Shown here one piece after another: positions 27,515-49,750 of a DNA stretch of 64,000 nucleotides. The notes beneath the pieces are model-generated. The model was given only the letters and a program-made list of their open reading frames with translations, did not search any database and was not told where the DNA came from. The DNA comes from Halorubrum sp. GN11_10-6_MGM (GTDB taxonomy: Archaea; Halobacteriota; Halobacteria; Halobacteriales; Haloferacaceae): assembly GCF_005435165.1 (NCBI RefSeq), contig NZ_SGUC01000014.1:1-64000 (forward strand), read 5' to 3'. How positions within the stretch are numbered: position 1 is the stretch's first letter; each line of letters opens with the position of its first letter. A program made the translations under genes and the position numbers.

Positions 27515-27729
27515 TCGGAGGAGTCGAGAGATTCGGAGGAGTCGGAGTCAGAGTAGGCGGTATCGATCGGCTCTCGACGACATCACCCACAGAAAGTACT
27601 TATTCTCCCTCGGATACGATCAGATATGAACGTTCGAGCGACGGTCGGACGACCACGCACCCGGTAGACGGTCCGTGCGACCGCCCCGCCGGGGCCGTAG
27701 CGGGCTGTGTTCCAGTGCGTGGAACCGCC

Positions 27730-27966
27730 ATGAACGACGACGAACTCCTCCGTCAAGAGCTGCGCAGCGCTCGCGAAGAACTCGTCCGCAAACGCACGTC
27801 CGAGGACACGGCCTCCGCGGAGAGCCGGCTCCCGCTAATGCCGGAGCGCGACGAGGCGTTCATCCGGCTCGCCCTGATGAGCGTCGAAGAGCTCGAAACG
27901 CATATCGAACGACTCGAACGCGATCTGGCCGATCTTCAGGAGGGTGTCGAGCGACCGGACGAGTAG
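27730..27966 (+). CDS. Small coiled-coil protein, copy 1 of a duplicated gene
   Basis: The 78-residue protein MNDDELLRQELRSAREELVR is charged and helical and ends LEERLERDLADLQEG-like (actual ETHIERLERDLADLQEG), a probable coiled coil. A near-identical copy lies at 29880-30123, on the other side of the ATPase pseudogene. I chose this ATG because the similarity to the second copy begins right after it. Function is unknown; the gene pair brackets an ATPase gene and may be part of that module. Confidence 0.6.
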   Translation: MNDDELLRQELRSAREELVRKRTSEDTASAESRLPLMPERDEAFIRLALMSVEELETHIERLERDLADLQEGVERPDE

Positions 27967-29820: not shown

Positions 29821-29879
29821 TATGTGTACGATAATATTATCGCCTTCATAATAGCTGTTCGGATCGATCGGGATCGCGG

Positions 29880-30123
29880 CTATACCCACGACGAACTCCT
29901 CCATCAGGAACTGCGCAGCGCTCGCGAAGAACTCGTCCGCAAACGGGCGCGACGATCTGAGAGTCCGGCCCCCTCGGAGAGCCGGCTCCCGTTGATGCCG
30001 GAGCACGACGAGGGGTTCATCCGGCTCGCCCTGATGAGCGTCGAAGAACTGGAAACGCATATCGAACGAATCGAACGGGATCTGGCCGATCTTCAGGAGG
30101 GCGTCGAACGACCGGACGAGTAG
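29880..30123 (+). pseudogene. Small coiled-coil protein, copy 2, lacking the native start
   Basis: From DELLHQELRSAREELVRK to the end EGVERPDE it matches the gene at 27730-27966 at about 85-90 per cent. The first codons are replaced by sequence from the divergent ATPase promoter region. An in-frame ATG at 29824 exists, but it reads through promoter-like DNA and is unlikely to be used. It is best seen as a 5'-truncated duplicate. Confidence 0.6.
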
Positions 30124-30180
30124 ACGGGATGTAACCAATTAGATAAGCAACTACTACTGATCGATTCCCTCTGAGACCGG

Positions 30181-30269
30181 GACACACCCCGTACCGAGTG
30201 TACACTAGTCTGGTACGGTCGCGTCGAATGAGAGTGACGGTCGGGCAGAGACACCCCTCGTACCGAGTG
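30181..30269 (+). repeat. Two origin-type repeats downstream of orc1/cdc6
   Basis: GACACACCCCGTACCGAGTG (30181-30200) and GACACCCCTCGTACCGAGTG (30250-30269) share a CACCCC...TACCGAGTG core. The same motif occurs on the other side of the initiator gene at 31559-31797. They resemble haloarchaeal origin recognition boxes. Confidence 0.7.
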
Positions 30270-30319
30270 AGTCCGACCAGTCGGAGCTGGAGATGAGTTA
30301 CCAGTTACTAGATCACCTG

Positions 30320-31516
30320 CTACTGGCCGTCAAGTCCTTTCGTAACGATCTCCGGCGATCGAAGCAGGCGGTGGACTCGATAGCTCCCGCCGCGGTGGCC
30401 ACCACCCGTGTGTTTGCTCTCGGTGACACCGAGAAACGCCTGCTCTTTGAGGAGGCGTTGGACGCGGTCGTAGCTCAGCGGCGTCGTACCGGCCTGCTCG
30501 GCGATCTTCTGATAGGCATCATAGACTTCTGCCGTGCGAAACGTCCGTGTATCGGCCTGTTCGGTGAGGAGTGCGAGCGCCCGGAGGATGTGTTTCACAT
30601 GCGGCGTCTGTCCGCTCACGAGTTTCTGGAATCGGTTTATTTCCGCACGGTCGACAGCGTCATCAACGTGAACTTCCGTGACGTGATCAGCCTGTTCCTG
30701 TTCGGCCAGCCGCCCCGCTTCGTACAGCATATCGATCGCCTTCCGGGCGTCACCGTGTTCACGGGCGGCGAGCGCTGCGGTCTTCGGAATGACACCGTCG
30801 TCGAGTACGCCATCCGCGAAGGCGTCCCGGCGACGGGAGAGGATCGCCTCGATCTGTGTGGCGTCGTAAGGATCGAAGACGAGCTCGTTGTCCTGGAGCG
30901 AGGAATCGACGCGCTCGCCGAGTCGTTCGCGGTACTCGATCTTGTTGCTGATACAGATCGCGCCGACGAACGTGTCCGCCTTTCCGCTTTCCTGTGCGCG
31001 CGAGAGGCTCCGCAAGAGCGCGTCGCCGTCGAGTTTGTCGATCTCGTCTAAGACGACCACGAACGCGTCGACGTCGCCTTCGGTGAGTAGCTCCCAAGTG
31101 ATGTCGCGGTAGTCCGCGGCCCCGATACCGCGCCGGGGAATCGAGCGATCGTCGACGGCGTCCCCGAGCCGTTCGTGAAGTTCACGCGCCATCTGCCGAC
31201 TCGCCTGCGCTTCGGTCCCGTAATCCGAGCAGTCGATGTAGGCGTACGCGAACGTGTTTCCGTTCGCCGTTGCGCGACGTCTGGCCTCCCTGGTGACACA
31301 CCTCGTAACGAGTGATTTTCCGGTCCCGGTCTTTCCGTAGACGATCGTCGTCTCGGGCGGGCCGCCGCGTATCGCGGGAGCGAGCGCGCTCCCCATCGAC
31401 TCGATCTCTCCGTCGCGGCCGACGACACGGTCGAGATCGGGGACGTGGCCGACGCGAACCAGCTCTCGCTCCCTGAAGATCTCTCCCGTCTCGAAGATGT
31501 CACCGCGTTCCGTCAT
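30320..31516 (-). CDS. orc: Orc1/Cdc6-family replication initiator
   Basis: The 398-residue AAA+ protein has Walker A YGKTGTGKS, Walker B VVVLDEIDKLDG, an ISNKIEYRERL sensor region and a C-terminal winged-helix domain (about 300-390). It binds origin repeats and starts replication. The repeats flank it on both sides, with an AT-rich stretch upstream, so it probably serves its own origin. Such an initiator among toxin-antitoxin genes suggests a plasmid or integrated replicon rather than the main chromosomal origin. Confidence 0.92.
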   Translation of the reverse strand: MTERGDIFETGEIFRERELVRVGHVPDLDRVVGRDGEIESMGSALAPAIRGGPPETTIVYGKTGTGKSLVTRCVTREARRRATANGNTFAYAYIDCSDYGTEAQASRQMARELHERLGDAVDDRSIPRRGIGAADYRDITWELLTEGDVDAFVVVLDEIDKLDGDALLRSLSRAQESGKADTFVGAICISNKIEYRERLGERVDSSLQDNELVFDPYDATQIEAILSRRRDAFADGVLDDGVIPKTAALAAREHGDARKAIDMLYEAGRLAEQEQADHVTEVHVDDAVDRAEINRFQKLVSGQTPHVKHILRALALLTEQADTRTFRTAEVYDAYQKIAEQAGTTPLSYDRVQRLLKEQAFLGVTESKHTGGGHRGGSYRVHRLLRSPEIVTKGLDGQ

Positions 31517-31558
31517 ACTCGTGTGTCAACGTCATCTGGGATATATCCATCGACCTCA

Positions 31559-31797
31559 TACCGAGTGAGATTCATTAAAATAGTTTTAGAAGATTACAAA
31601 GTACTATTCAGTTCTTTTTAAATATGTTATATCCATACACTACACACCCCAATCCGAGTGACATTCGCCACAGTCGGCCACCGACGAACCATGTATCTCG
31701 TGGACCGATCTCACTCGGTATCGGGTGTGGGTGTCGATAACAGCGAATCGGTCACATCGACCCTCCGATCCCGTCTTCACTCGGTACTGGGTGTGTC
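31559..31797. repeat. Putative replication origin: inverted ORB-like repeats around an AT-rich stretch
   Basis: Four copies of the CACCCC...CCGAGTG motif lie upstream of orc1/cdc6. A partial one is at 31559-31569 and a direct one at 31641-31660 (TACACACCCCAATCCGAGTG). Two are inverted, at 31712-31731 (CACTCGGTATCGGGTGTGGG) and 31778-31797 (CACTCGGTACTGGGTGTGTC). Bases 31570-31640 are very A+T-rich and could unwind. The arrangement fits an archaeal origin. Confidence 0.75.
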
Positions 31798-31866
31798 CCA
31801 TCGATACGTCTCCGTTGAAATACTGTCTACCTAGAGTCTATTAGCTATCGTACCCTAGGGTACGGT

Positions 31867-32160: not shown

Positions 32161-32312
32161 CAGAAGTTCTCGACTACCTTGATGACATTCTCGAAAGCGT
32201 CGAGAAGATCTGGCGATTCACTCGACGCTATCGAGTGAGCCATACAGTTCTTCGTTCTGAAGATGCGTACAGAACTGTGCACAAAGTCGACAGCAGTCCT
32301 CCGCATCAGTGA
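32157..32312 (+). pseudogene. hepT: Truncated HepT/HEPN toxin gene
   Basis: The first 23 residues (MTEVLDYLDDILESVEKIWR and three more) match the intact HepT at 58346-58684. After that the reading frame runs into the opposite-strand gene at 32218 and ends without the RxxxxH catalytic motif. The toxin is therefore inactive. Confidence 0.8.
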
Positions 32313-32886
32313 ACGTCCGGAGGCTCGCGTCCCAGCGTGCGTGGACGGCTCCGAGCATCGCACTGCGAACTGATGGTTCGGTCGCGACCAGCACCCGTCG
32401 TGCGCGTTCCGGTGGTGTCGCGTCACTTGCCGGCCCTCGCATGTCATCCGTCGACAGGAGATCCTCGAGGACGCTCCCGATCTCGATCCCGACGCCGAGG
32501 TTGTCGCCGACCTGCGGGGCGATGAAGATCGTCGCGTTACTCGCCTCTGCGAAGGCGATACTCTGAGTGGCGGCGTCCATCTCGTCGAGTGAGATCCCGA
32601 CATCGATCGCGAGGAACGCGTTGAAGCCGCGGTCACGGAGACAGTCTCGTGTCTCCTGAAGGAGACGTAAGACCGCGTCCTCGGCGTACTCGCCGGTGGT
32701 GTCGTCCCACGTCGCAAACGACGGGACATCGTTTTCGACGTCGGCGTCCGTCGGGAGCAGCGCGTCGACGTCGAACGTTCGATACGGCCCCATTAGATAG
32801 ACGAGAAACCGTTCTCGCCGGACCGGAGCAAGCGCATCCGAGTCACCGGCGGCACGGGGAAGGTTGTCGATGATCCGTTGCCGCAT
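32218..32886 (-). CDS. DUF7509-like protein
   Basis: The 222-residue protein starts MRQRIIDNLPRAAGDSDALA; I chose this Met over an upstream one in the intergenic region. The core FLVYLMGPYRTFDVDALLP and later FAEASNATIFIAPQVG resemble a haloarchaeal family I recall as DUF7509, with a nucleoside 2-deoxyribosyltransferase/TIR-like look. It is divergent from a winged-helix regulator gene 111 bases away, a pairing seen elsewhere in haloarchaea. Its biochemical role is not known. Confidence 0.6.
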   Translation of the reverse strand: MRQRIIDNLPRAAGDSDALAPVRRERFLVYLMGPYRTFDVDALLPTDADVENDVPSFATWDDTTGEYAEDAVLRLLQETRDCLRDRGFNAFLAIDVGISLDEMDAATQSIAFAEASNATIFIAPQVGDNLGVGIEIGSVLEDLLSTDDMRGPASDATPPERARRVLVATEPSVRSAMLGAVHARWDASLRTFTDAEDCCRLCAQFCTHLQNEELYGSLDSVE

Positions 32887-32997
32887 TCGAGTCGGTGATT
32901 CAAAGTGATAGTATATAAATATCGGGATTCTCAAAGATATTCTAGTCGAGAACACCTAAGTACAGCGCGTGCTATCGTTCAAGCAGAGGCACTCCAG

Positions 32998-33390
32998 ATG
33001 TCCGAAACCGATCGCCAGCAACCGGAGGAGATTCGGCAGCCGGACCCGCTGCTTCCCGACGAGAGCGGGCTGACGCTCGCAGAATACCTCTCGATGCAAC
33101 AGGCGATCGGCCATCCGACGCGGTTTCGGATCCTGCGAACGCTCGTCGCCAACGACGAACTGAGTGCCGCAGATCTCAAGGCCGCAGTCGACGTCGAGTC
33201 TCACAACTTCCACTACCACCTCGACGAACTGGTTGCCGTCGGACTCGTCGACAAGCGCCAGCGACGGACCGCGGATAGCCAGGGTTTCTACACGTACTAT
33301 CGACCGACAGGGATGGGTCGCGGGATTCTCGATCACGGTGTCGAAGAGCTCATGCGTCGTGAACGCGAGTTCAACGACGCGTATTCGTGA
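32998..33390 (+). CDS. ArsR-like winged-helix transcriptional regulator
   Basis: The 130-residue protein (start MSETDRQQPEEIRQ) has a compact winged helix: SMQQAIGHPTRFRILRTLVA, then the recognition helix VESHNFHYHLDELVAVGLV and a wing. It is divergent from the DUF7509-like gene and probably regulates it. I chose the Met at 32998 because the upstream in-frame extension lies in AT-rich promoter sequence. Confidence 0.82.
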   Translation: MSETDRQQPEEIRQPDPLLPDESGLTLAEYLSMQQAIGHPTRFRILRTLVANDELSAADLKAAVDVESHNFHYHLDELVAVGLVDKRQRRTADSQGFYTYYRPTGMGRGILDHGVEELMRREREFNDAYS

Positions 33391-34152: not shown

Positions 34153-34228
34153 AGCCCCGGAGTCTCCGCTGGCGAGAGACGCCGGACTTTGAATCCGGAG
34201 GTCGCCGGTTCGATTCCGGCCGGGGCGA
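34153..34228 (+). tRNA. tRNA-Gln(TTG)
   Basis: D-stem GTCT/AGAC, anticodon stem CCGGA/TCCGG with loop CTTTGAA (anticodon 34189-34191) and T-stem GCCGG/CCGGC all pair. The acceptor AGCCCCG/CGGGGCG pairs except position 1-72. No CCA is encoded. It shares its D-arm with the tRNA-Glu at 35829. Confidence 0.8.
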
Positions 34229-34231
34229 CAT

Positions 34232-34304
34232 GCCGACGTAGTGTAATCGGCGATCATACGGTCCTGTCACGGCCGTGATCCGGGTTCAACTCCCGGCGTC
34301 GGCG
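34232..34304 (+). tRNA. tRNA-Asp(GTC)
   Basis: Acceptor GCCGACG/CGTCGGC is perfect, anticodon stem CGGTC/GGCCG has loop CTGTCAC, and the T-arm is CCGGG/CCCGG. It starts three bases after the tRNA-Gln, implying joint transcription and processing. Confidence 0.85.
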
Positions 34305-34554
34305 TGGTGCGTGGTGTTGCCACGTGGGGATACCCATCGAGGTAGGCAGCCCGTTGGTGCGATCATCCGGATCGTTCTCGCGGTGCTGGGCCCAGCAGGG
34401 TCTGTGACCTATCTGAGCCGGTGTGGTATTCCCGGGATCACCCGAAGTACGCCCCCGCGATGAGAAACGCAATCACGACTACTCGGTCGGGGTTGCGCAG
34501 TTGGAAACAGTCGTACAGAGAGAGAATCAACTGCCGAACGCTCGGCAGTTCCGT
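34305..34554. other. Gap in the tRNA array with strong inverted repeats
   Basis: No tRNA T-arm or gene was found. Two perfect inverted repeats stand out: TGCTGGGCCCAGCA (34384-34397) and the hairpin AACTGCCGA/TCGGCAGTT (34529-34537 and 34542-34550, loop ACGC). The hairpin ends five bases before the next tRNA and may be a processing or folding element of the polycistronic transcript. Confidence 0.45.
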
Positions 34555-34625
34555 GAGCCGAAGTCCAGCGGACGACATCTGTGCCTTGGACGCACAGGAC
34601 CGAGGTTCGACTCCTCGTCGACTCA
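34555..34625 (+). tRNA. tRNA-Pro(TGG)-like
   Basis: Anticodon stem TGTGC/GCACA with loop CTTGGAC and T-stem CGAGG/CCTCG are perfect. Acceptor GAGCCGA/TCGACTC has one C-A mismatch, and the D-stem is only three pairs (GTC/GAC). Confidence 0.7.
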
Positions 34626-34629
34626 GTGT

Positions 34630-34716
34630 GCCGCGACTGGGTATCAGGGAACCCAGCGGCCTGCTACGCCGTGGCCGTCTGCTATCGGTCTCCCGGTTCG
34701 AATCCGGGTCGTGGCG
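34630..34716 (+). tRNA. tRNA-Ser(GCT)
   Basis: Class II tRNA. Acceptor GCCGCGA/TCGTGGC has one G-U pair, D-stem is GGGT/ACCC, anticodon loop is CTGCTAC, the long variable arm is GGCCG/CGGTC, and T-stem is CCCGG/CCGGG. All arms fold. Confidence 0.85.
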
Positions 34717-34718
34717 TC

Positions 34719-34859
34719 ATGACAACGAATGTCTGTCCTGCCTGTGAGGAGGAAGCGTTCCGTCACGTCCAGCTCGGTGAAACAACGTCGATCGACACGA
34801 TTGGAAGCGTGAAAATCTGCGTCACCGATGACGGCACGTACTTCCACGGAACGAGGTGA
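34719..34859 (+). CDS. 46-residue zinc-binding-type protein inside the tRNA array
   Basis: The frame reads MTTNVCPACEEEAFRHVQLG, then continues to VKICVTDDGTYFHGTR. A CPAC knuckle plus one later Cys suggests metal binding, as in many haloarchaeal microproteins. It starts two bases after the tRNA-Ser(GCT) and is the only clear protein gene within the array. Function is unknown; it might be an RNA-binding accessory. Confidence 0.6.
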   Translation: MTTNVCPACEEEAFRHVQLGETTSIDTIGSVKICVTDDGTYFHGTR

Positions 34860-34988
34860 TTGCCATTTGTCCCTGTCCTGACTGGGTGCTGGTGAGCGCA
34901 TTCGCCTGGACAGTGATCAAAAGCTGAGCAATGGGCATCTTCCGGCGTCCTGTGAGTAACGCGAAGCGTGCTCATCGGAGTTTGTGCT

Positions 34989-35070
34989 GGTGAGGCATGC
35001 CGGTAAGCGACCGCGCTCGGTTAGAAACCGAGGGTCGCGAGGCTTCGGAGTTCGACTCTCCGTCTCACCG
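34989..35070 (+). tRNA. tRNA-Ser-like with anticodon AGA
   Basis: Acceptor GGTGAGG/TCTCACC (one G-U), anticodon stem CTCGG/CCGAG with loop TTAGAAA, and T-stem CGGAG/CTCCG pair well. The D-arm is degenerate and the variable region is 13 nt. An A34 anticodon is very unusual in archaea, so decoding function is doubtful. Confidence 0.6.
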
Positions 35071-35072
35071 TT

Positions 35073-35158
35073 GGCGGAGTTTCCCTAGCTTGGTCAAGGG
35101 ACTGCGTTGGAACCGCAGCGTCCGCGAGGACACGAGTGTTCAAATCGCTCTCCCGCCG
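35073..35158 (+). tRNA. tRNA-Ser(GGA)
   Basis: Class II: D-stem TCCC/GGGA, anticodon stem CTGCG/CGCAG with loop TTGGAAC, variable hairpin GTCC/GGAC, T-stem GAGTG/CGCTC. Acceptor GGCGGAG/TCCCGCC has one A-C mismatch. It begins two bases after the preceding tRNA-like gene. Confidence 0.78.
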
Positions 35159-35205
35159 CTGCGTGCCAACGTGATTCGCAGAGCCGTTGGTGATTTTCGA
35201 AGGAC

Positions 35206-35287
35206 GCCGCCATGCCAGAGTGGTCAAACGGACACGGTCGAGGACCGTGTGGGTAGTCCTTCCCAGGTTCGAATCCTGGTGGCGGCA
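35206..35287 (+). tRNA. tRNA-Leu(GAG)
   Basis: Acceptor GCCGCCA/TGGCGGC is perfect, anticodon stem CACGG/CCGTG has loop TCGAGGA, and the T-arm is CCAGG/CCTGG. It is class II with a 13-nt variable region. Position 33 is C instead of the near-universal T. Confidence 0.75.
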
Positions 35288-35329
35288 TCCAGCCATTATG
35301 TCGGGAGACAGTTCCCGATCAAACGTTGC

Positions 35330-35412
35330 GTCGCCATACCCAAGCGGTCAACGGGAAGCGGTTCAGACCCGCTGGCGTAGGTCCTTCCGAGGTTCGAATC
35401 CTCGCGGCGACA
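35330..35412 (+). tRNA. tRNA-Leu(CAG)
   Basis: Anticodon stem AGCGG/CCGCT with loop TTCAGAC, D-stem CCC/GGG, T-stem CGAGG/CCTCG and a class II variable region. Acceptor GTCGCCA/CGGCGAC pairs except the innermost A-C. Confidence 0.78.
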
Positions 35413-35415
35413 TTT

Positions 35416-35487
35416 CTCTCTGTGGTCTAGCGGCTACGATGCCTCCCTGTAGAGGAGGAGACGCACGTTCGAGTCGTGTCGGGGAGA
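35416..35487 (+). tRNA. tRNA-Tyr(GTA)-like
   Basis: Acceptor CTCTCTG/CGGGGAG pairs with three wobbles, anticodon stem CCTCC/GGAGG has loop CTGTAGA, and the T-stem is GCACG/CGTGT. The D-arm is weak. It starts four bases after tRNA-Leu(CAG). Confidence 0.68.
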
Positions 35488-35549
35488 CTGCGGGACGATG
35501 GAAGAGCCTGGTATTCACACTCTCGCCGAGTTTTCACCGGGGATCCGGT

Positions 35550-35616
35550 GCGACGGGGAGAGCTCCTTCATCTCACTTGTAATGGGAACACGCAGGTTCG
35601 AATCCTGCCCGTCCCA
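35550..35616 (+). tRNA. tRNA-Thr(TGT)-like, reduced D-arm
   Basis: Anticodon stem TCTCA/TGGGA with loop CTTGTAA and T-stem GCAGG/CCTGC are good. Acceptor GCGACGG/CCGTCCC has one mismatch, but only 12 nt remain for the D-arm. A second candidate 5' strand, GGGACGA at 35492, would add an insert that includes the hairpin CACCGG/CCGGTG (35535-35550). Confidence 0.55.
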
Positions 35617-35651
35617 CTGGCTGATGACCTCTTCGCAGGCGAGGCCAATTC

Positions 35652-35724
35652 GCTCCAGTGGAGTAGTGGCCAAACTCACGGCCCTCTCACGGCCGACCCC
35701 CCGGTTCGAATCCGGGCTGGAGCA
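35652..35724 (+). tRNA. tRNA-Glu(CTC)
   Basis: All arms are perfect: acceptor GCTCCAG/CTGGAGC, D-stem GAGT/ACTC, anticodon stem CGGCC/GGCCG with loop CTCTCAC, T-stem CCCGG/CCGGG. This is the cleanest tRNA in the array. Confidence 0.9.
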
Positions 35725-35736
35725 TGCGGATCCAGA

Positions 35737-35798
35737 GCCTATGCGGACAGGCAAGCGGCTTTAACCCTGATTGTGGGACGTTCGAGTCCTTCCCAGGC
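35737..35798 (+). tRNA. Degenerate tRNA-like sequence (anticodon unclear)
   Basis: It has a T-loop (GTTCGAGTCC) and partial acceptor pairing GCCTATG/CCCAGGC (five of seven). The anticodon region CGGCTTTAACCCTG pairs poorly; read literally the anticodon would be TTA, complementary to a stop codon. Probably a decayed or non-decoding tRNA-like RNA. Confidence 0.4.
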
Positions 35799-35828
35799 GC
35801 TTGGAACCACGAGTCCCATAGCGTTCAT

Positions 35829-35904
35829 GCTCCCGGAGTCTCCGTTGGCGAGAGACGCCAGCCCTTCAAGCTGGAGGCCAGGGGTTCGATCCCCCTCGGG
35901 AGCA
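35829..35904 (+). tRNA. tRNA-Glu(TTC)
   Basis: Acceptor GCTCCCG/CGGGAGC, D-stem GTCT/AGAC, anticodon stem CCAGC/GCTGG and T-stem AGGGG/CCCCT all pair. The loop is CCTTCAA, so position 33 is C. It is followed four bases later by a long hairpin. Confidence 0.82.
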
Positions 35905-35907
35905 CTC

Positions 35908-36002
35908 GGGGCTGACAGTGACAAACTCTCGTGTGACTATTGACTAGCTTGCAGGCAATAAGATGGAAACACGGGTCAGCGACGCTGTCACTGTCAGTCC
36001 CC
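35908..36002 (+). ncRNA. Long-stem hairpin RNA candidate next to the Y-like hairpin
   Basis: GGGGCTGACAGTGACA (35908-35923) pairs with TGTCACTGTCAGTCCCC (35986-36002), a 16-bp stem with one bulged base, closing a 62-nt interior. It fits exactly between tRNA-Glu(TTC) and the next hairpin. Its loop contains TTGCAGGC (35949-35956), complementary to GCCTGCAA (36038-36045) in the neighbouring hairpin loop. Confidence 0.5.
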
Positions 36003-36006
36003 CATG

Positions 36007-36098
36007 CGTGTGGTCGTCGAGGTGGTGCGTTCCTTCAGCCTGCAAAGCATCACACCGGGAGTCATAGCCCGTTGCACCATCCGTTTCACGACCACACG
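36007..36098 (+). ncRNA. Candidate Y-RNA-like hairpin upstream of the TROVE gene
   Basis: Outer stem CGTGTGGTCG/CGACCACACG has ten perfect pairs. Then come an internal loop TCGA/GTTTCA, an inner stem GGTGGTGC/GCACCA-T-CC with one bulged T, and a 45-nt loop. Stem, CGA-containing internal loop and bulged second stem follow the layout of the Ro-binding helix of animal Y RNAs. It lies 500 bases before a Ro60-family gene. The pairing is seen in the sequence; Y-RNA identity is inferred. Confidence 0.42.
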
Positions 36099-36164
36099 TG
36101 GCGACCGTCGAGTCGGGGCGCTGCTTCGCCCAGGAACACGCAGGTTCAAATCCTGTCGGTGGTA
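36091..36164 (+). tRNA. tRNA-like 3' domain abutting the Y-like hairpin
   Basis: The T-arm GCAGG/CCTGT with loop TTCAAAT is good, and a GGGCG/CGCCC hairpin stands in the anticodon place, but with a six-base loop. Acceptor ACCACAC/CGGTGGT pairs in only five positions, and its 5' strand is also needed by the Y-like stem. It may be a tRNA-mimic module rather than a tRNA. Confidence 0.4.
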
Positions 36165-36284
36165 CTATCCATCGAAAACATCCCGGACAAAGAGCGCACG
36201 AGGGTGCTCTCGACACCGGGTCCCGCTCCGACAGTTTTCCGGTCGCCATCACTCATCTCGTGGCCGTCGAGTTGGAGTCATCCG

Positions 36285-36329
36285 TCGCCTCAGGAGCCGG
36301 AAGTCCGGGTTCGAATCCCGGCGGTGGAA
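36285..36329 (+). tRNA. Isolated tRNA 3' half (T-arm and acceptor)
   Basis: T-stem CCGGG/CCCGG with loop TTCGAAT is followed by the acceptor strand CGGTGGA (36322-36328). No matching 5' strand was found upstream, but TCCACCG, an exact complement, starts about 20 bases downstream. See the 5' half at 36348. Confidence 0.5.
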
Positions 36330-36347
36330 TCCCACTGGTCCACCGTG

Positions 36348-36385
36348 GTGTAACCAGGTAGCACGCCGCTCTGGCTCCAGTAGTT
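36348..36385 (+). tRNA. tRNA 5' half, Trp(CCA)-like, downstream of its matching 3' half
   Basis: TCCACCG is followed by TG, a D-arm-like stretch (GTGTAACCAGGTAGCAC) and TCTGG-CTCCA, which reads as an anticodon stem and CCA anticodon. TCTGG can pair with CCGGA in the 3' half upstream. No T-arm follows in the right place. Confidence 0.35.
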
Positions 36386-36401
36386 TTCCGGCCACGTCCG
36401 T

Positions 36402-36532
36402 GTCTCCGTAGCTCAGGCAGGACAGAGCACCGTCAGAGCTTGCTCTGACGAGCCCTCGTTCGGGTCTTCGACCCTCATGAGGACACCGGCCTTCGAAGCC
36501 GGGTGTCGCACGTTCGAATCGTGTCGGAGACG
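36402..36532 (+). tRNA. tRNA-Arg(TCG) with a 56-nt structured insertion
   Basis: Acceptor GTCTCCG/CGGAGAC, D-stem GCTC/GAGC, anticodon stem CCGGC/GCCGG with loop CTTCGAA, and T-stem GCACG/CGTGT pair. Between position 26 and the anticodon stem lie bases 36430-36485, which fold into two hairpins: CGTCAGAGC/GCTCTGACG (loop TT) and GGGTC/GACCC (loop TTC). This could be an unusual intron or a duplicated arm. Confidence 0.65.
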
Positions 36533-36600
36533 TTCGCTGCTTACACTCCATGTGAGCAGCATCGGTATCGGAGTCGCCTGTTGCGGCTCCGGGTGATAGT

Positions 36601-38130
36601 ATGGAATTCAACAAGCCACAGCAAACGGTCGCGGAAGCGACGCGAACCACTAACTACGAGGGTGGGGAAGCGTTCGAGCCTGCCGACCCTCGACTCGCAC
36701 TGTACAAGCGCACGATCAACCAACTGCTGGAAGGCTCGTTCTACGAAAGCGATGATGAACAACTCGCGGCAGTCGTACAGCGCTTCGACGCTGCGGCAGA
36801 CGAGGATCCAGAATTCGTCTTGAAGCTCGCCGCGTACGCACGGCAAGAACTCTACCTGCGGGACATTCCACAGGTGTTGCTCGTACTGGCAGCCAACGAC
36901 GAGCGGTTCAAGGACGACTCTCCGGAGTCGCTTATCCGCGAATGGGCGCCGGCGATCATCCAGCGGATGGACGAAACGGCGACGGCGCTTGCCGTCCACG
37001 ACCAGTTGTTCGGCGGCACGGCCCCGTGGCCACTCCGCCGGGGGATCGAGGACGCGCTCGTGGCCATGGCTGACGCCTACACGCTCGGCAAGTACGAGCT
37101 GTCGCGCCGCGAGGTGACGCTCCACGACGTGTTCAACCGGGTCCACCCAGCACCCGTGGACGACGAGCAGGAGGCCCTGTTCGAGCGGTTCATGCGCGGC
37201 GACCTCGACGACTACCCCGACGTCGATCCGGTGGCCTCGCCAAACACGTGGGAGACGGTCATTTCCGAGCGCGGCAACACCCGAGACGCGTGGGAGACGC
37301 TCATCGAGGACGATGCGTACACGCTCCCGATCTTCGCGTCGATCCGGAACCTTCGGAACATGCTCGAGGCTGGCGTCGACGAGGACACTATCGTCGACCA
37401 CCTCGATCTGGAGGCGGTGCGACACGCGCCGTTGTACCCGTTCGGGTACTACCAAGCGTACACCGCGCTACAGGAAGCGGACATCCACGCACCCGCCGTC
37501 GAACAGTGGCTGGAATCCGCTATCGACGTCGCAGTCGAGACTGTCCCTGCCGGCTTCGGCGACACGTTCGTTGCCGTGGACCTGTCGGGATCGATGGACC
37601 ACCCGCTGTCCACGAACAGCACGCTGCGACTCAAAGAGATTGGCGCGCTGTTCGGTGCGATTCTGGCCGACCAAGGTGCCCAAGTCGGCGGGTTCGGAGA
37701 CGACTTCCAGACCGTTCCGATGCACGTCGACACGCCAGTCCTCCAGCGTCAAGACGCAGTGCTGGCCATCGACGAGGGTGTCGGCAATTCGACGAACGGC
37801 TGGAAGGCAATCGATCACCTCCGCGAGCGAGGTGAGCCCGTTGAGCGCATCGTCGTCTTTACCGACATGCAGATCTGGGACAGCACGCCGTTCATGGCGC
37901 GCGATTCCCAGACCGTCAAGTCGGCGTTCGATGCCTACCAAGCGGAGGTCGCTACAGACACGGCGTTGTATCTCGTCGACCTTGCCGCCTACGGCGATCT
38001 GGTAACACCGGAAGGCTACGAGAACGTCTACAATATCTCTGGCTGGACGGAAAACGTGCTCACGTTCATCAAGCACGCTGAGAAGCCGTCACAGGTTCTC
38101 GACGACATCGACGCAGTCGAGCCTGAATAA
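36601..38130 (+). CDS. TROVE/vWA-domain Ro60-family RNA-binding protein
   Basis: The 509-residue protein has an N-terminal helical-repeat TROVE domain (about 10-320), then a von Willebrand A domain with the MIDAS motif DLSGSM (327-332) and FTDMQIW (about 420-426). This is the Ro60/Rsr architecture. The ring binds Y RNAs and misfolded small RNAs, and helps RNA quality control by exonucleases. Length and both domains are complete. It starts 70 bases after the last upstream tRNA, and another tRNA follows 25 bases downstream, so it is embedded in the array. RtcB was not seen nearby. Confidence 0.9.
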   Translation: MEFNKPQQTVAEATRTTNYEGGEAFEPADPRLALYKRTINQLLEGSFYESDDEQLAAVVQRFDAAADEDPEFVLKLAAYARQELYLRDIPQVLLVLAANDERFKDDSPESLIREWAPAIIQRMDETATALAVHDQLFGGTAPWPLRRGIEDALVAMADAYTLGKYELSRREVTLHDVFNRVHPAPVDDEQEALFERFMRGDLDDYPDVDPVASPNTWETVISERGNTRDAWETLIEDDAYTLPIFASIRNLRNMLEAGVDEDTIVDHLDLEAVRHAPLYPFGYYQAYTALQEADIHAPAVEQWLESAIDVAVETVPAGFGDTFVAVDLSGSMDHPLSTNSTLRLKEIGALFGAILADQGAQVGGFGDDFQTVPMHVDTPVLQRQDAVLAIDEGVGNSTNGWKAIDHLRERGEPVERIVVFTDMQIWDSTPFMARDSQTVKSAFDAYQAEVATDTALYLVDLAAYGDLVTPEGYENVYNISGWTENVLTFIKHAEKPSQVLDDIDAVEPE

Positions 38131-38154
38131 TCTGGTTCTCTCATTTTTTACCAG

Positions 38155-38227
38155 GCGCGAGTGGTGGCGTTCGGTACCACGCGGTCCTGCCACGACCGAG
38201 ACGGGCGTTCGAATCGTCTCTCGCGCA
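38155..38227 (+). tRNA. tRNA-Gly(GCC)
   Basis: Acceptor GCGCGAG/CTCGCGC, D-stem GTGG/CCAC, anticodon stem CGGTC/GACCG with loop CTGCCAC and T-stem GGGCG/CGTCT (two wobbles) all pair. It lies just after the TROVE gene, with a T-rich run (ATTTTTTA, 38143-38150) between them. Confidence 0.88.
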
Positions 38228-38286
38228 CTCGGAGCACAGTTCTGGACTAATCAGCCCATGCGGTACTCCTCCACGGAGATGGTAGA

Positions 38287-39834: not shown

Positions 39835-40269
39835 TCAGTGATCGAGAGACGTTCGGACTTCACGACAGAAGACCGGAAACCACTGGAGGTCGTGTTGAAG
39901 ATGGGCATACACCTGTTCATCGTCCAGATCACCTCCGTAGTTGTGTGCGAGCACATTACGAAATCCGGCCGCTGCTCCCATTCGAGCCGCCGTCTCCTCA
40001 GAGAGCACGTCCTGTTGTTCGAGCTGATCGAACTTTTCGGCGTTGGTGGGAGGCATTTCTTCAGTCGAATCCCGAATGAGCAGCTCGGCGATGTCGATAC
40101 AAGCTTCGATGGCAACCTGGAATTCTCGTTCAACGATCGCCTGCTGTTCTCGATCGGCGAGATACTCCTCGCGTTCGAGTGACCGTTTTTGAGCGAGTAG
40201 CTTCGTTGCTTCCGTCACAAACTCGACTTTGTCGACAATTCGGTCGATCGTCTCTCCGTTATGCGCCAA
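39835..40269 (-). CDS. hepT: HepT/HEPN-family toxin
   Basis: The 144-residue HEPN protein has the catalytic motif RNVLAHNYG near residue 103. It overlaps the mntA gene upstream by 11 bases. Second complete MNT/HEPN pair in a row on this strand. Confidence 0.88.
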   Translation of the reverse strand: MAHNGETIDRIVDKVEFVTEATKLLAQKRSLEREEYLADREQQAIVEREFQVAIEACIDIAELLIRDSTEEMPPTNAEKFDQLEQQDVLSEETAARMGAAAGFRNVLAHNYGGDLDDEQVYAHLQHDLQWFPVFCREVRTSLDH

Positions 40270-48037: not shown

Positions 48038-49411
48038 TCAACAGAGCAGAGTGGTGAGTTCGTCCAAGCCGTAGAGAGCCGTATCGGACCGGTCGCCAGC
48101 GGCCCCACGCAACTCATCGGTGAACCCAGACCGAGAGAAAAGCGCATACCGCACGTCCCGATCAGCTCCCTGCCATCGGACCTCCGGCTCCAGCGCGGTG
48201 AGATCATCAAATACCGTGCGGCCAACGGGTGTTGCGGTCCACTTACACTCACCGAGGAGCAGCGTGTTCGTATCTCGGTTGATCCCGACGATATCGATCT
48301 CATCACCACCGTACCACCAGCGGCCGACCCGCGAGCAAGAGACGGGGAACGCAGGCGTGCGAACTGCCTGTTGACACACGGTTTCGAAGGTCCGACTGGT
48401 GTGTGTCGGGAGCGTCTCGGCGATCGCCGCGCGAACCGGTGCGGTCTGTCCCTGTTCGAGCGTGCCCCGATTTGGTGCCACGTACCGGAACCAAAATCGA
48501 AGGAAGTCATCCGTGAGCCGATAGAGTCCACGCCCGTCCGGGTCCGTGACTGGGTGCTCTCGCTCGAGGATCGCCAGCTGGGTCAAATTCTGGAGATACC
48601 GGGAGAGGCTGCTGGCATCGCGTCCGACCTCGTTGGCGATCTCGGTGACGCGAGTCGCTCCAGCGGCGATCGCTTCCAAGATAGCCAGATACGTGGCGGG
48701 TTCGCGGAGTTCCTGTCGCAACAGAAACTCCGGCTCCTCATAGAGGAACGCACCCTTCGAGAGGATCGCCCGCTCGATGTTCTCAAAGAGAGATTGCTCC
48801 GGATCGAACTGTTCGAGATACGCGGGGACGCCTCCGAGAACGCTGTACAGCTGGATTTGAGTCTCCAGATCAGTGTTCGGGAAGAACTCACGGGCATCCG
48901 CGAACGAGAGCGGCGCGAGTTCCCATTGTCCCGTCCGTCGACCGTACAGAGGGCTCTCGTAGCTCAACACACCATCTTCCATCATCGAAATGGATGACCC
49001 CAACAGTACGAGTGAGATATTCGTCCCGTCCAGCACATTGTCAACGATTGTCTGAAAGACGGACGGAATCGTCTCATCGTCATCCACGAGATACGAGAAT
49101 TCGTCGAGTGCCACCACGCACGGACCGTCAACGCGGGCGGTGAGATATCGAAACGCCTCCACGAAGTCATCGACATCGGGTGTGATATCATCGAACGCGT
49201 CAGCACATTGCGACGCAAATCGTCGGGCGTTATGGGTTGATCCCCGCTCGTCACAGAGGTAATAGATTGATGTGAGCTCTAGCTCTTCAATCGCGGTCGT
49301 TACGAGAGTTGTCTTGCCGACGCGTCGTCTTCCGTAAACGACGAGCAGCTGTCGCTCTTCTTGAGAGAGGTGTGACGTGAGCCACTCGAGTTCTCTCTTT
49401 CGGTTTATCAT
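48038..49411 (-). CDS. ATPase-DUF234 protein, copy 2, intact
   Basis: The 457-residue protein starts MINRKRELEWLTSHLSQEER. It has Walker A VYGRRRVGKTTLV, a Walker-B-type VVALDEFSYLVD, a winged-helix region (VTEIANEVGRDASSLSRYL) and a C-terminal DUF234 domain with PD-(D/E)XK-like DEIDIVGINRD...GECKW. This archaeal SSO1545-type family is abundant in mobile DNA; function is unproven. It is about 90 per cent identical to the broken copy at 28439-29820. I chose the start conserved in both copies. Confidence 0.85.
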   Translation of the reverse strand: MINRKRELEWLTSHLSQEERQLLVVYGRRRVGKTTLVTTAIEELELTSIYYLCDERGSTHNARRFASQCADAFDDITPDVDDFVEAFRYLTARVDGPCVVALDEFSYLVDDDETIPSVFQTIVDNVLDGTNISLVLLGSSISMMEDGVLSYESPLYGRRTGQWELAPLSFADAREFFPNTDLETQIQLYSVLGGVPAYLEQFDPEQSLFENIERAILSKGAFLYEEPEFLLRQELREPATYLAILEAIAAGATRVTEIANEVGRDASSLSRYLQNLTQLAILEREHPVTDPDGRGLYRLTDDFLRFWFRYVAPNRGTLEQGQTAPVRAAIAETLPTHTSRTFETVCQQAVRTPAFPVSCSRVGRWWYGGDEIDIVGINRDTNTLLLGECKWTATPVGRTVFDDLTALEPEVRWQGADRDVRYALFSRSGFTDELRGAAGDRSDTALYGLDELTTLLC

Positions 49412-49750
49412 TATGTGTTCGATCATATTATCTTGTTCATAATAGCTGTTGGGCTTGGCTGGTTCATCAAACTGAAGCAGTCTGGAAGAGGACCGCCGAG
49501 ACTAGAGGCACCGATTGGGATTTCTGTCGTCACCACGCGCCGTCGACAGAACGTCGATCAGCCGACGTTTTATCGTGGCCATAGTGGAATAGCAGTTCGC
49601 TCGTGGATCCGTTTGTACCCCTCGCCCCAATGAAGTGAGAGGGATTCGGAAGTGAGAATGACCCGTACCAGTTCTCACTCAGGACTATACAGCAACTAGG
49701 GTATCTACCGGATGTGGCCACCACCGACACGACCGGCTCACTGTTCATCA
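49412..49750. other. Intergenic region upstream of the ATPase gene
   Basis: The first 35 bases match the region upstream of the other ATPase copy (to ATAATAGCTGTT), so the promoter was copied with the gene. The rest shows no gene or RNA. Confidence 0.4.

Follow-up and report, generated by a model that had tools for sequence, protein, structure and literature searches.

A putative chromosomal replication origin of known haloarchaeal type in Halorubrum and a candidate origin box within the Walker A codons of its orc1 gene

Introduction

Does a cluster of repeats around an orc1/cdc6 gene in a variable part of a Halorubrum chromosome mark a replication origin and, if so, what would hold its initiator in check? 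Haloarchaea carry many initiator-origin pairs, and the control elements that we found described are those of oriC1 and oriC2 of one species (PMC3936714). The window analysed here (64,000 nucleotides) is the first 64 kb of the 84-kb contig C49 in the 3.32-Mb draft genome of Halorubrum sp. GN11_10-6_MGM. A sequence-only reading of this DNA had proposed that six repeats flanking orc1/cdc6 form a probable replication origin, inside an accessory region derived from a replicating element. Judged from its sequence, the locus appears to be an intact-looking chromosomal replication start site of a known haloarchaeal type. Very probably it is a self-contained initiator-origin unit, in which Orc1 would bind the boxes, an AT-rich tract would melt and extra boxes would restrain Orc1.

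Anatomy of the origin unit

The features of the locus, in window coordinates, are as follows.

30150 to 31803: origin unit (downstream boxes, orc1, AT-rich tract, upstream boxes), from the blastn block 30153-31805 and edge comparison
30183 to 30200, + strand: downstream origin box (ORB), CACACCCCGTACCGAGTG, pattern and weight-matrix match
30252 to 30269, + strand: downstream ORB, CACCCCTCGTACCGAGTG, pattern and weight-matrix match
30320 to 31516, - strand: orc1/cdc6 initiator gene, intact, 398 aa, with AAA+, Cdc6 lid and C-terminal winged-helix domains
31297 to 31314, + strand: intragenic ORB, CACACCTCGTAACGAGTG, on the strand opposite the orc1 Walker A codons (GKSLVTRCV)
31536 to 31549, - strand: TATA-like promoter element of orc1, GGATATATCC on the - strand, read from the sequence, adjoining the proximal ORB
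31550 to 31567, + strand: promoter-proximal ORB, divergent, TCGACCTCATACCGAGTG, outer arm altered where it abuts the TATA-like box
31568 to 31640: AT-rich tract, candidate DNA unwinding element, 80% AT in the best 70 bp
31643 to 31660, + strand: upstream ORB, 93 bp from the proximal ORB
31712 to 31729, - strand: upstream ORB, inverted, pattern and weight-matrix match
31778 to 31795, - strand: upstream ORB, inverted, pattern and weight-matrix match

The box consensus, CACACCYCGTACCGAGTG, is represented by seven copies between positions 30183 and 31795, two downstream of orc1, four upstream and one inside the gene. The six repeats described earlier are real boxes with accurate coordinates and do flank orc1, and the count rises to seven with the copy at 31297(+), which had not been placed and which sits within the gene. 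The inverted order ascribed to the upstream repeats was confirmed (31643(+) versus 31712(-) and 31778(-)), with the inverted pair 31643/31712 enclosing only about 51 bp. On the complementary strand the boxes finish with a short G run (GGGGTGTG, GAGGGGTG or CGGGTGTG), as against the long G-string of oriC1.

A strict pattern, CACNCCNNNNNCCGAGTG, had six matches in the 3.32-Mb genome, five of them at the orc1 locus, and the same pattern read backwards as a control had none in the whole genome. With three mismatches allowed genome-wide, six full boxes were recovered (all except the divergent box at 31550); the five best matches were all at the locus, and matches elsewhere were scattered single sites. 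In a weight-matrix scan of the 64-kb window the seven boxes scored 20-29 and one other site 10.7, the expectation being about 1.7 sites scoring at least 9 per shuffled window. GC skew at the locus was uninformative.

The AT-rich stretch of about 70 bases noted earlier between the first two upstream boxes proved to be real, and the boxes that flank it (31550, 31643) share the same orientation. The 70 bp from 31568 (31568-31637) are 80% AT, in the top 0.005% of 70-mers in the window, and are among its least stable DNA. The AT tract of oriC1 is enclosed by inverted boxes, whereas that of the window is not.

Orc1 matched Pfam AAA_16, Cdc6_lid and Cdc6_C above cut-offs, with 2v1u and 2qby_A as the nearest solved chains, and showed 96, 82 and 81% identity only to proteins of Halobellus captivus and two Halorubrum. 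The comparison with Halobellus captivus gave dN 0.020 and dS 0.287 (dN/dS about 0.07), and the gene is under purifying selection. In terms of the criteria of Wu et al. (2012), the locus has an orc/cdc6 gene of more than 300 aa with AAA+ and C-terminal winged-helix domains, at least two ORBs including inverted ones in the intergenic DNA adjoining orc1, and an AT-rich unwinding element among the ORBs, though between boxes of the same orientation. A phage origin was considered and rejected, Orc1 having no match in phage records and a single distant (29%) match in viral contigs. Contig C49 also carries a fragment of another Orc1/Cdc6 a short way beyond the right end of the window (G000:C49:64914-65165).

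Association of the box motif with one Orc1 clade

The locus was compared with 80 relatives with 10-kb flanks, together with plasmid relatives and Haloarcula genomes, using a weight matrix built from intergenic boxes. Between three and ten boxes were found near orc1 at 15 of 16 loci of the same Orc1 clade, the exception being a truncated locus with one box (L064), whereas no box was seen at 54 of the 60 loci representing other Orc1 families or in 43 of the 45 clade-locus blocks lying at a distance from orc1; since the matrix was trained on clade loci, the comparison with other families and with distant blocks is the informative part. A motif that accompanies one Orc1 clade and hardly ever occurs beside other Orc1 families points to a cognate initiator-origin pair. 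The layout also recurs in the clade: distal boxes in inverted orientation, then one box at -144 to -180 and another 93-95 bp nearer the gene, by the promoter, with further boxes shortly after the 3' end.

That the repeats are regulator sites or transposon ends with no tie to replication is highly improbable on this evidence: the long inverted repeat pairs at the ends of the origin unit (27 nt, 89%) do resemble terminal repeats, but the boxes occur in several copies, in mixed orientation and varying number, around the same Orc1 clade only, and there is no transposase within the unit. The reading of the locus as a probable replication origin is well supported by its anatomy, the conserved pairing of boxes with their presumptive cognate initiator and the purifying selection on orc1.

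In most clade members the outer arm of the proximal box is changed (TCGACC, CCGACC, GCGACC, CTGACC and others) where it meets the AT-rich TATA-like element, as expected if the box shares bases with the promoter. An element resembling TATAWAA...TTTGAAA was also observed between the two proximal boxes in many clade members (upstream regions L053-L056 and L137-L139).

Comparison with known origins

Among described origins, oriC3-cdc6D of Haloarcula (H. hispanica, H. amylolytica and H. argentinensis) belongs to the same Orc1 clade and shares with the window the box motif, the 93-bp promoter spacing, the downstream box and the intragenic box. The copy in L141, which we take to be H. hispanica by its fit to the published description, is without the distal inverted boxes that the window unit keeps. 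Orc1 of the window is 68% identical to the Haloarcula proteins, below the Orc/Cdc6 identity of at least 80% by which Wu et al. delimit the oriC3-cdc6D family; the two have the same ORB sequence, one weight matrix finding the boxes of both. Like the window unit, oriC3-cdc6D lies in chromosomal variable regions (PMC4441112), and that of H. hispanica, the nearest tested relative, had no autonomous replication activity (PMC3528665).

The oriC2-cdc6E origin of Haloarcula hispanica has ORBs on both sides of the initiator gene, as in the window, where two ORBs lie downstream compared with 11 in the 722 bp of oriC2D. The origin of Haloterrigena turkmenica pHTUR04 (HTUR_RS24735) has a 70-71% identical Orc1 and the same box motif, with seven boxes upstream and four downstream; it differs in being plasmid-borne and in lacking an intragenic box. 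The Halorubrum plasmids pR1SE and pHLAC01 encode a 55% identical Orc1, with no boxes of this motif nearby.

Chromosomal setting and history

The left 28 kb of the window aligns, with rearrangement, to the main chromosome of another Halorubrum (G019), which indicates that the contig is chromosomal. This part carries genes for an RND transporter, CetZ, an S-layer glycoprotein (the only full one in the genome), an STT3-like transferase and a sugar transferase. From about 28 kb the content is accessory, with archaeal ATPase, nucleotidyltransferase and HEPN-like genes, a tRNA array, Ro60 and several TnpB genes. The origin is thus sited in a variable region beside S-layer and glycosylation genes, the same setting as that of the novel haloarchaeal origins which Wu et al. 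placed in divergent parts of chromosomes with many polysaccharide and transposase genes (PMC3528665).

Most of the stretch from 27 to 53.5 kb has a counterpart of about 90% identity, collinear in blocks, on the chromosome of Halorubrum G021. There the remnant of the origin (L155 11960-12417) consists of two downstream boxes and one upstream box with the middle deleted, and retains the C-terminal end of orc1 in frame (the last ~80 codons). The origin is deleted in G021, as read from its sequence, and since that chromosome lives with the deleted version, the origin is dispensable in a relative. The wreck in G021 and the intact unit in the window, lying in matching chromosomal regions, offer a natural comparison for the gain and loss of an extra chromosomal origin.

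The origin unit is common to Halobellus captivus (88.8% DNA identity over 30153-31805), where its neighbours are different. As the neighbours of the 1.65-kb unit differ among the window, G021 and Halobellus captivus, the unit travels separately from the surrounding genes. Its left edge near 30150 is common to the three contexts, and no duplication was seen at the edges of the unit. A precise mobile cassette with fixed ends was rejected: beyond the last box, G021 and Halobellus captivus have right-flank sequence in common that is absent from the window, so the right edge in the window reflects local rearrangement. In Halobellus captivus a HEPN-like gene (L046 11374-11646) immediately adjoins the origin unit; its 89.7% identical counterpart in the window, at 39835-40269, is separated from the unit by 8 kb.

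The earlier suggestion that the accessory region derives from a replicating element does not follow from the origin alone, the contig being chromosomal; part of the region may plausibly descend from a plasmid, given that the tRNA array-Ro60 block at 33.6-38.6 kb is found on plasmids of other haloarchaea, several with orc1 nearby. It is quite unlikely, however, that the accessory region as a whole is a single plasmid, integrated recently, of which this is the origin. Carriage of a relative of the window Orc1 by pHTUR04 would fit such an event, as would the plasmid tRNA-Ro60 blocks, but these blocks accompany a different Orc1 family (~53% identity), most of the region is collinear with chromosomal DNA of a different species (G021), and the origin unit has other neighbours in both Halobellus captivus and G021. 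Nor does the region show an extrachromosomal backbone in one block with attachment-site duplication: the synteny with G019 and G021 is chromosomal, and the edges of the unit carry no visible duplication.

The intragenic box

The copy within orc1 lies in the Walker A codons TCA CTC GTT ACG AGG TGT GTC, the complement of which reads CACACCTCGTAACGAGTG at 31297-31314. Some form of this box is present in 15 clade orc1 genes (14 intact and one frameshifted), whose Walker A loop is GKSLV[TA]RCV. Box carriers are spread over several branches of the clade tree, so the site is either old with losses or has arisen repeatedly. In a scan of coding sequence against its own flanking repeats at 85 orc1 loci, the Walker A site was found in this clade only; one locus (L104) gave a weak count elsewhere.

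The match could be no binding site, its codons being conserved for protein, mRNA or chance reasons, and the Walker A loop is indeed invariant in the protein, while three of the 66 genes from other Orc1 families have TCA CTC GTT too. The constraint, however, is synonymous: these three codons are invariant in 15 of 15 carriers, whereas four other triplets take their place among the six clade members without the box. When synonymous codings were sampled by local codon usage, the box was reproduced with P no higher than 3.5e-4 in nine of ten carrier genes, the tenth (L053) having a P_syn of 2e-3. In ten non-redundant genes (proteins 62-85% identical) the box site was the most synonymously conserved stretch of the gene, with a synonymous excess of 0.32-0.35 versus at most 0.20 elsewhere and z of 5.2 (4.7-5.2 overall), where z assumes comparable neighbouring windows and is uncorrected for shared descent; L063, read as frameshifted, was left out of the final statistic. 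The mean same-codon rate elsewhere in the gene was 0.43, a synonymous divergence which argues that descent alone does not explain the conservation of the box. Because the genes were picked for having the box, the argument rests on the whole-gene ranking and P_syn and not on membership of the group. The peak was gone in four members of the clade that lack the box. The intragenic box scored 28.1, within the range of the intergenic boxes (20.0-29.0). A non-binding explanation is accordingly unlikely.

The intragenic box thus appears to be under selection at the level of DNA sequence, and we infer a role in initiator titration or autoregulation. Tentatively, the stretch may be dual-coded DNA, the codons of the initiator's ATP-binding loop doubling as a binding site for that same protein, such that bound Orc1 would block orc1 transcription or be titrated, tying initiator supply to origin occupancy; the site would then have persisted in several haloarchaeal families and disappeared from some lineages. 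This reading is a little less likely than not. The origin itself is of an already known kind, while a synonymously constrained box in initiator Walker A codons appears to be new in the literature searched, which covered few subscription journals and contained no report of intragenic ORBs. The published origin survey was confined to intergenic regions (PMC3528665), and an intragenic box was therefore out of its reach.

Proposed working of the origin

In the mechanism that we favour, Orc1/Cdc6 encoded at 30320-31516 would bind the CACACCYCGTACCGAGTG boxes, and the upstream boxes would load it beside the AT-rich tract, which would melt so that replication starts. Orc1 at the promoter-proximal box, which abuts the TATA element, would probably repress orc1. 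The downstream boxes probably sequester the protein, like the ORB-rich region downstream of cdc6E at Haloarcula hispanica oriC2, where these ORBs restrain the origin, likely by titration (PMC3936714). The intragenic box, kept by apparent selection on DNA, would most likely add a titration or transcription-roadblock site, and all of these elements (two downstream boxes, promoter box and intragenic box) would lower free Orc1. The unit most likely works as described for the H. hispanica origins, for each of which dependence on its own cdc6 has been established experimentally (PMC3936714).

Present-day firing is the least certain step of this mechanism: the H. hispanica oriC3-cdc6D is inactive, though it has lost the distal inverted boxes that the window unit retains. 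A dormant or relic origin, intact but carried as a silent passenger in a chromosomal variable region, is an appreciable though somewhat doubtful possibility. H. hispanica oriC4 and oriC5 look complete and have no ARS activity (PMC3528665), origins in variable regions have been repeatedly gained and disrupted (PMC4441112), and G021 has the wreck of the same origin in the matching region. The intact orc1 with its low dN/dS (~0.07) and the retention of all box classes, their spacing and the synonymous constraint speak instead for the self-contained unit proposed above.

Other features around the origin

Right of the origin unit, a gene pair encoding DUF7509 and helix-turn-helix proteins (window 32231-33388; L127-L129) occurs at 80-85% identity and in differing surroundings on many haloarchaeal plasmids. 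It is followed at 34153-38228 by 11 tRNA genes and a tRNA-Gly arrayed beside a gene for a Ro60 (TROVE) homologue. Eleven haloarchaeal plasmids encode a Ro60 of 75-90% identity, and several of them have a different Orc1 close by; chromosomes of other Halorubrum carry the tRNA-Ro60 block as well, and no paper on it was found in the literature searched. The tRNA-Ser at 34988-35071 carries an AGA anticodon, in contrast to the TGA of its counterparts in G021 and pNVE500; a serine tRNA with A34 would be unusual for an archaeon. To the left of the unit, two similar copies of a small gene (EELVRKR...VERPDE; 27700-27966 and 29824-30123) bracket an archaeal ATPase_2/DUF234 gene, a second copy of which lies at 48038-49426.
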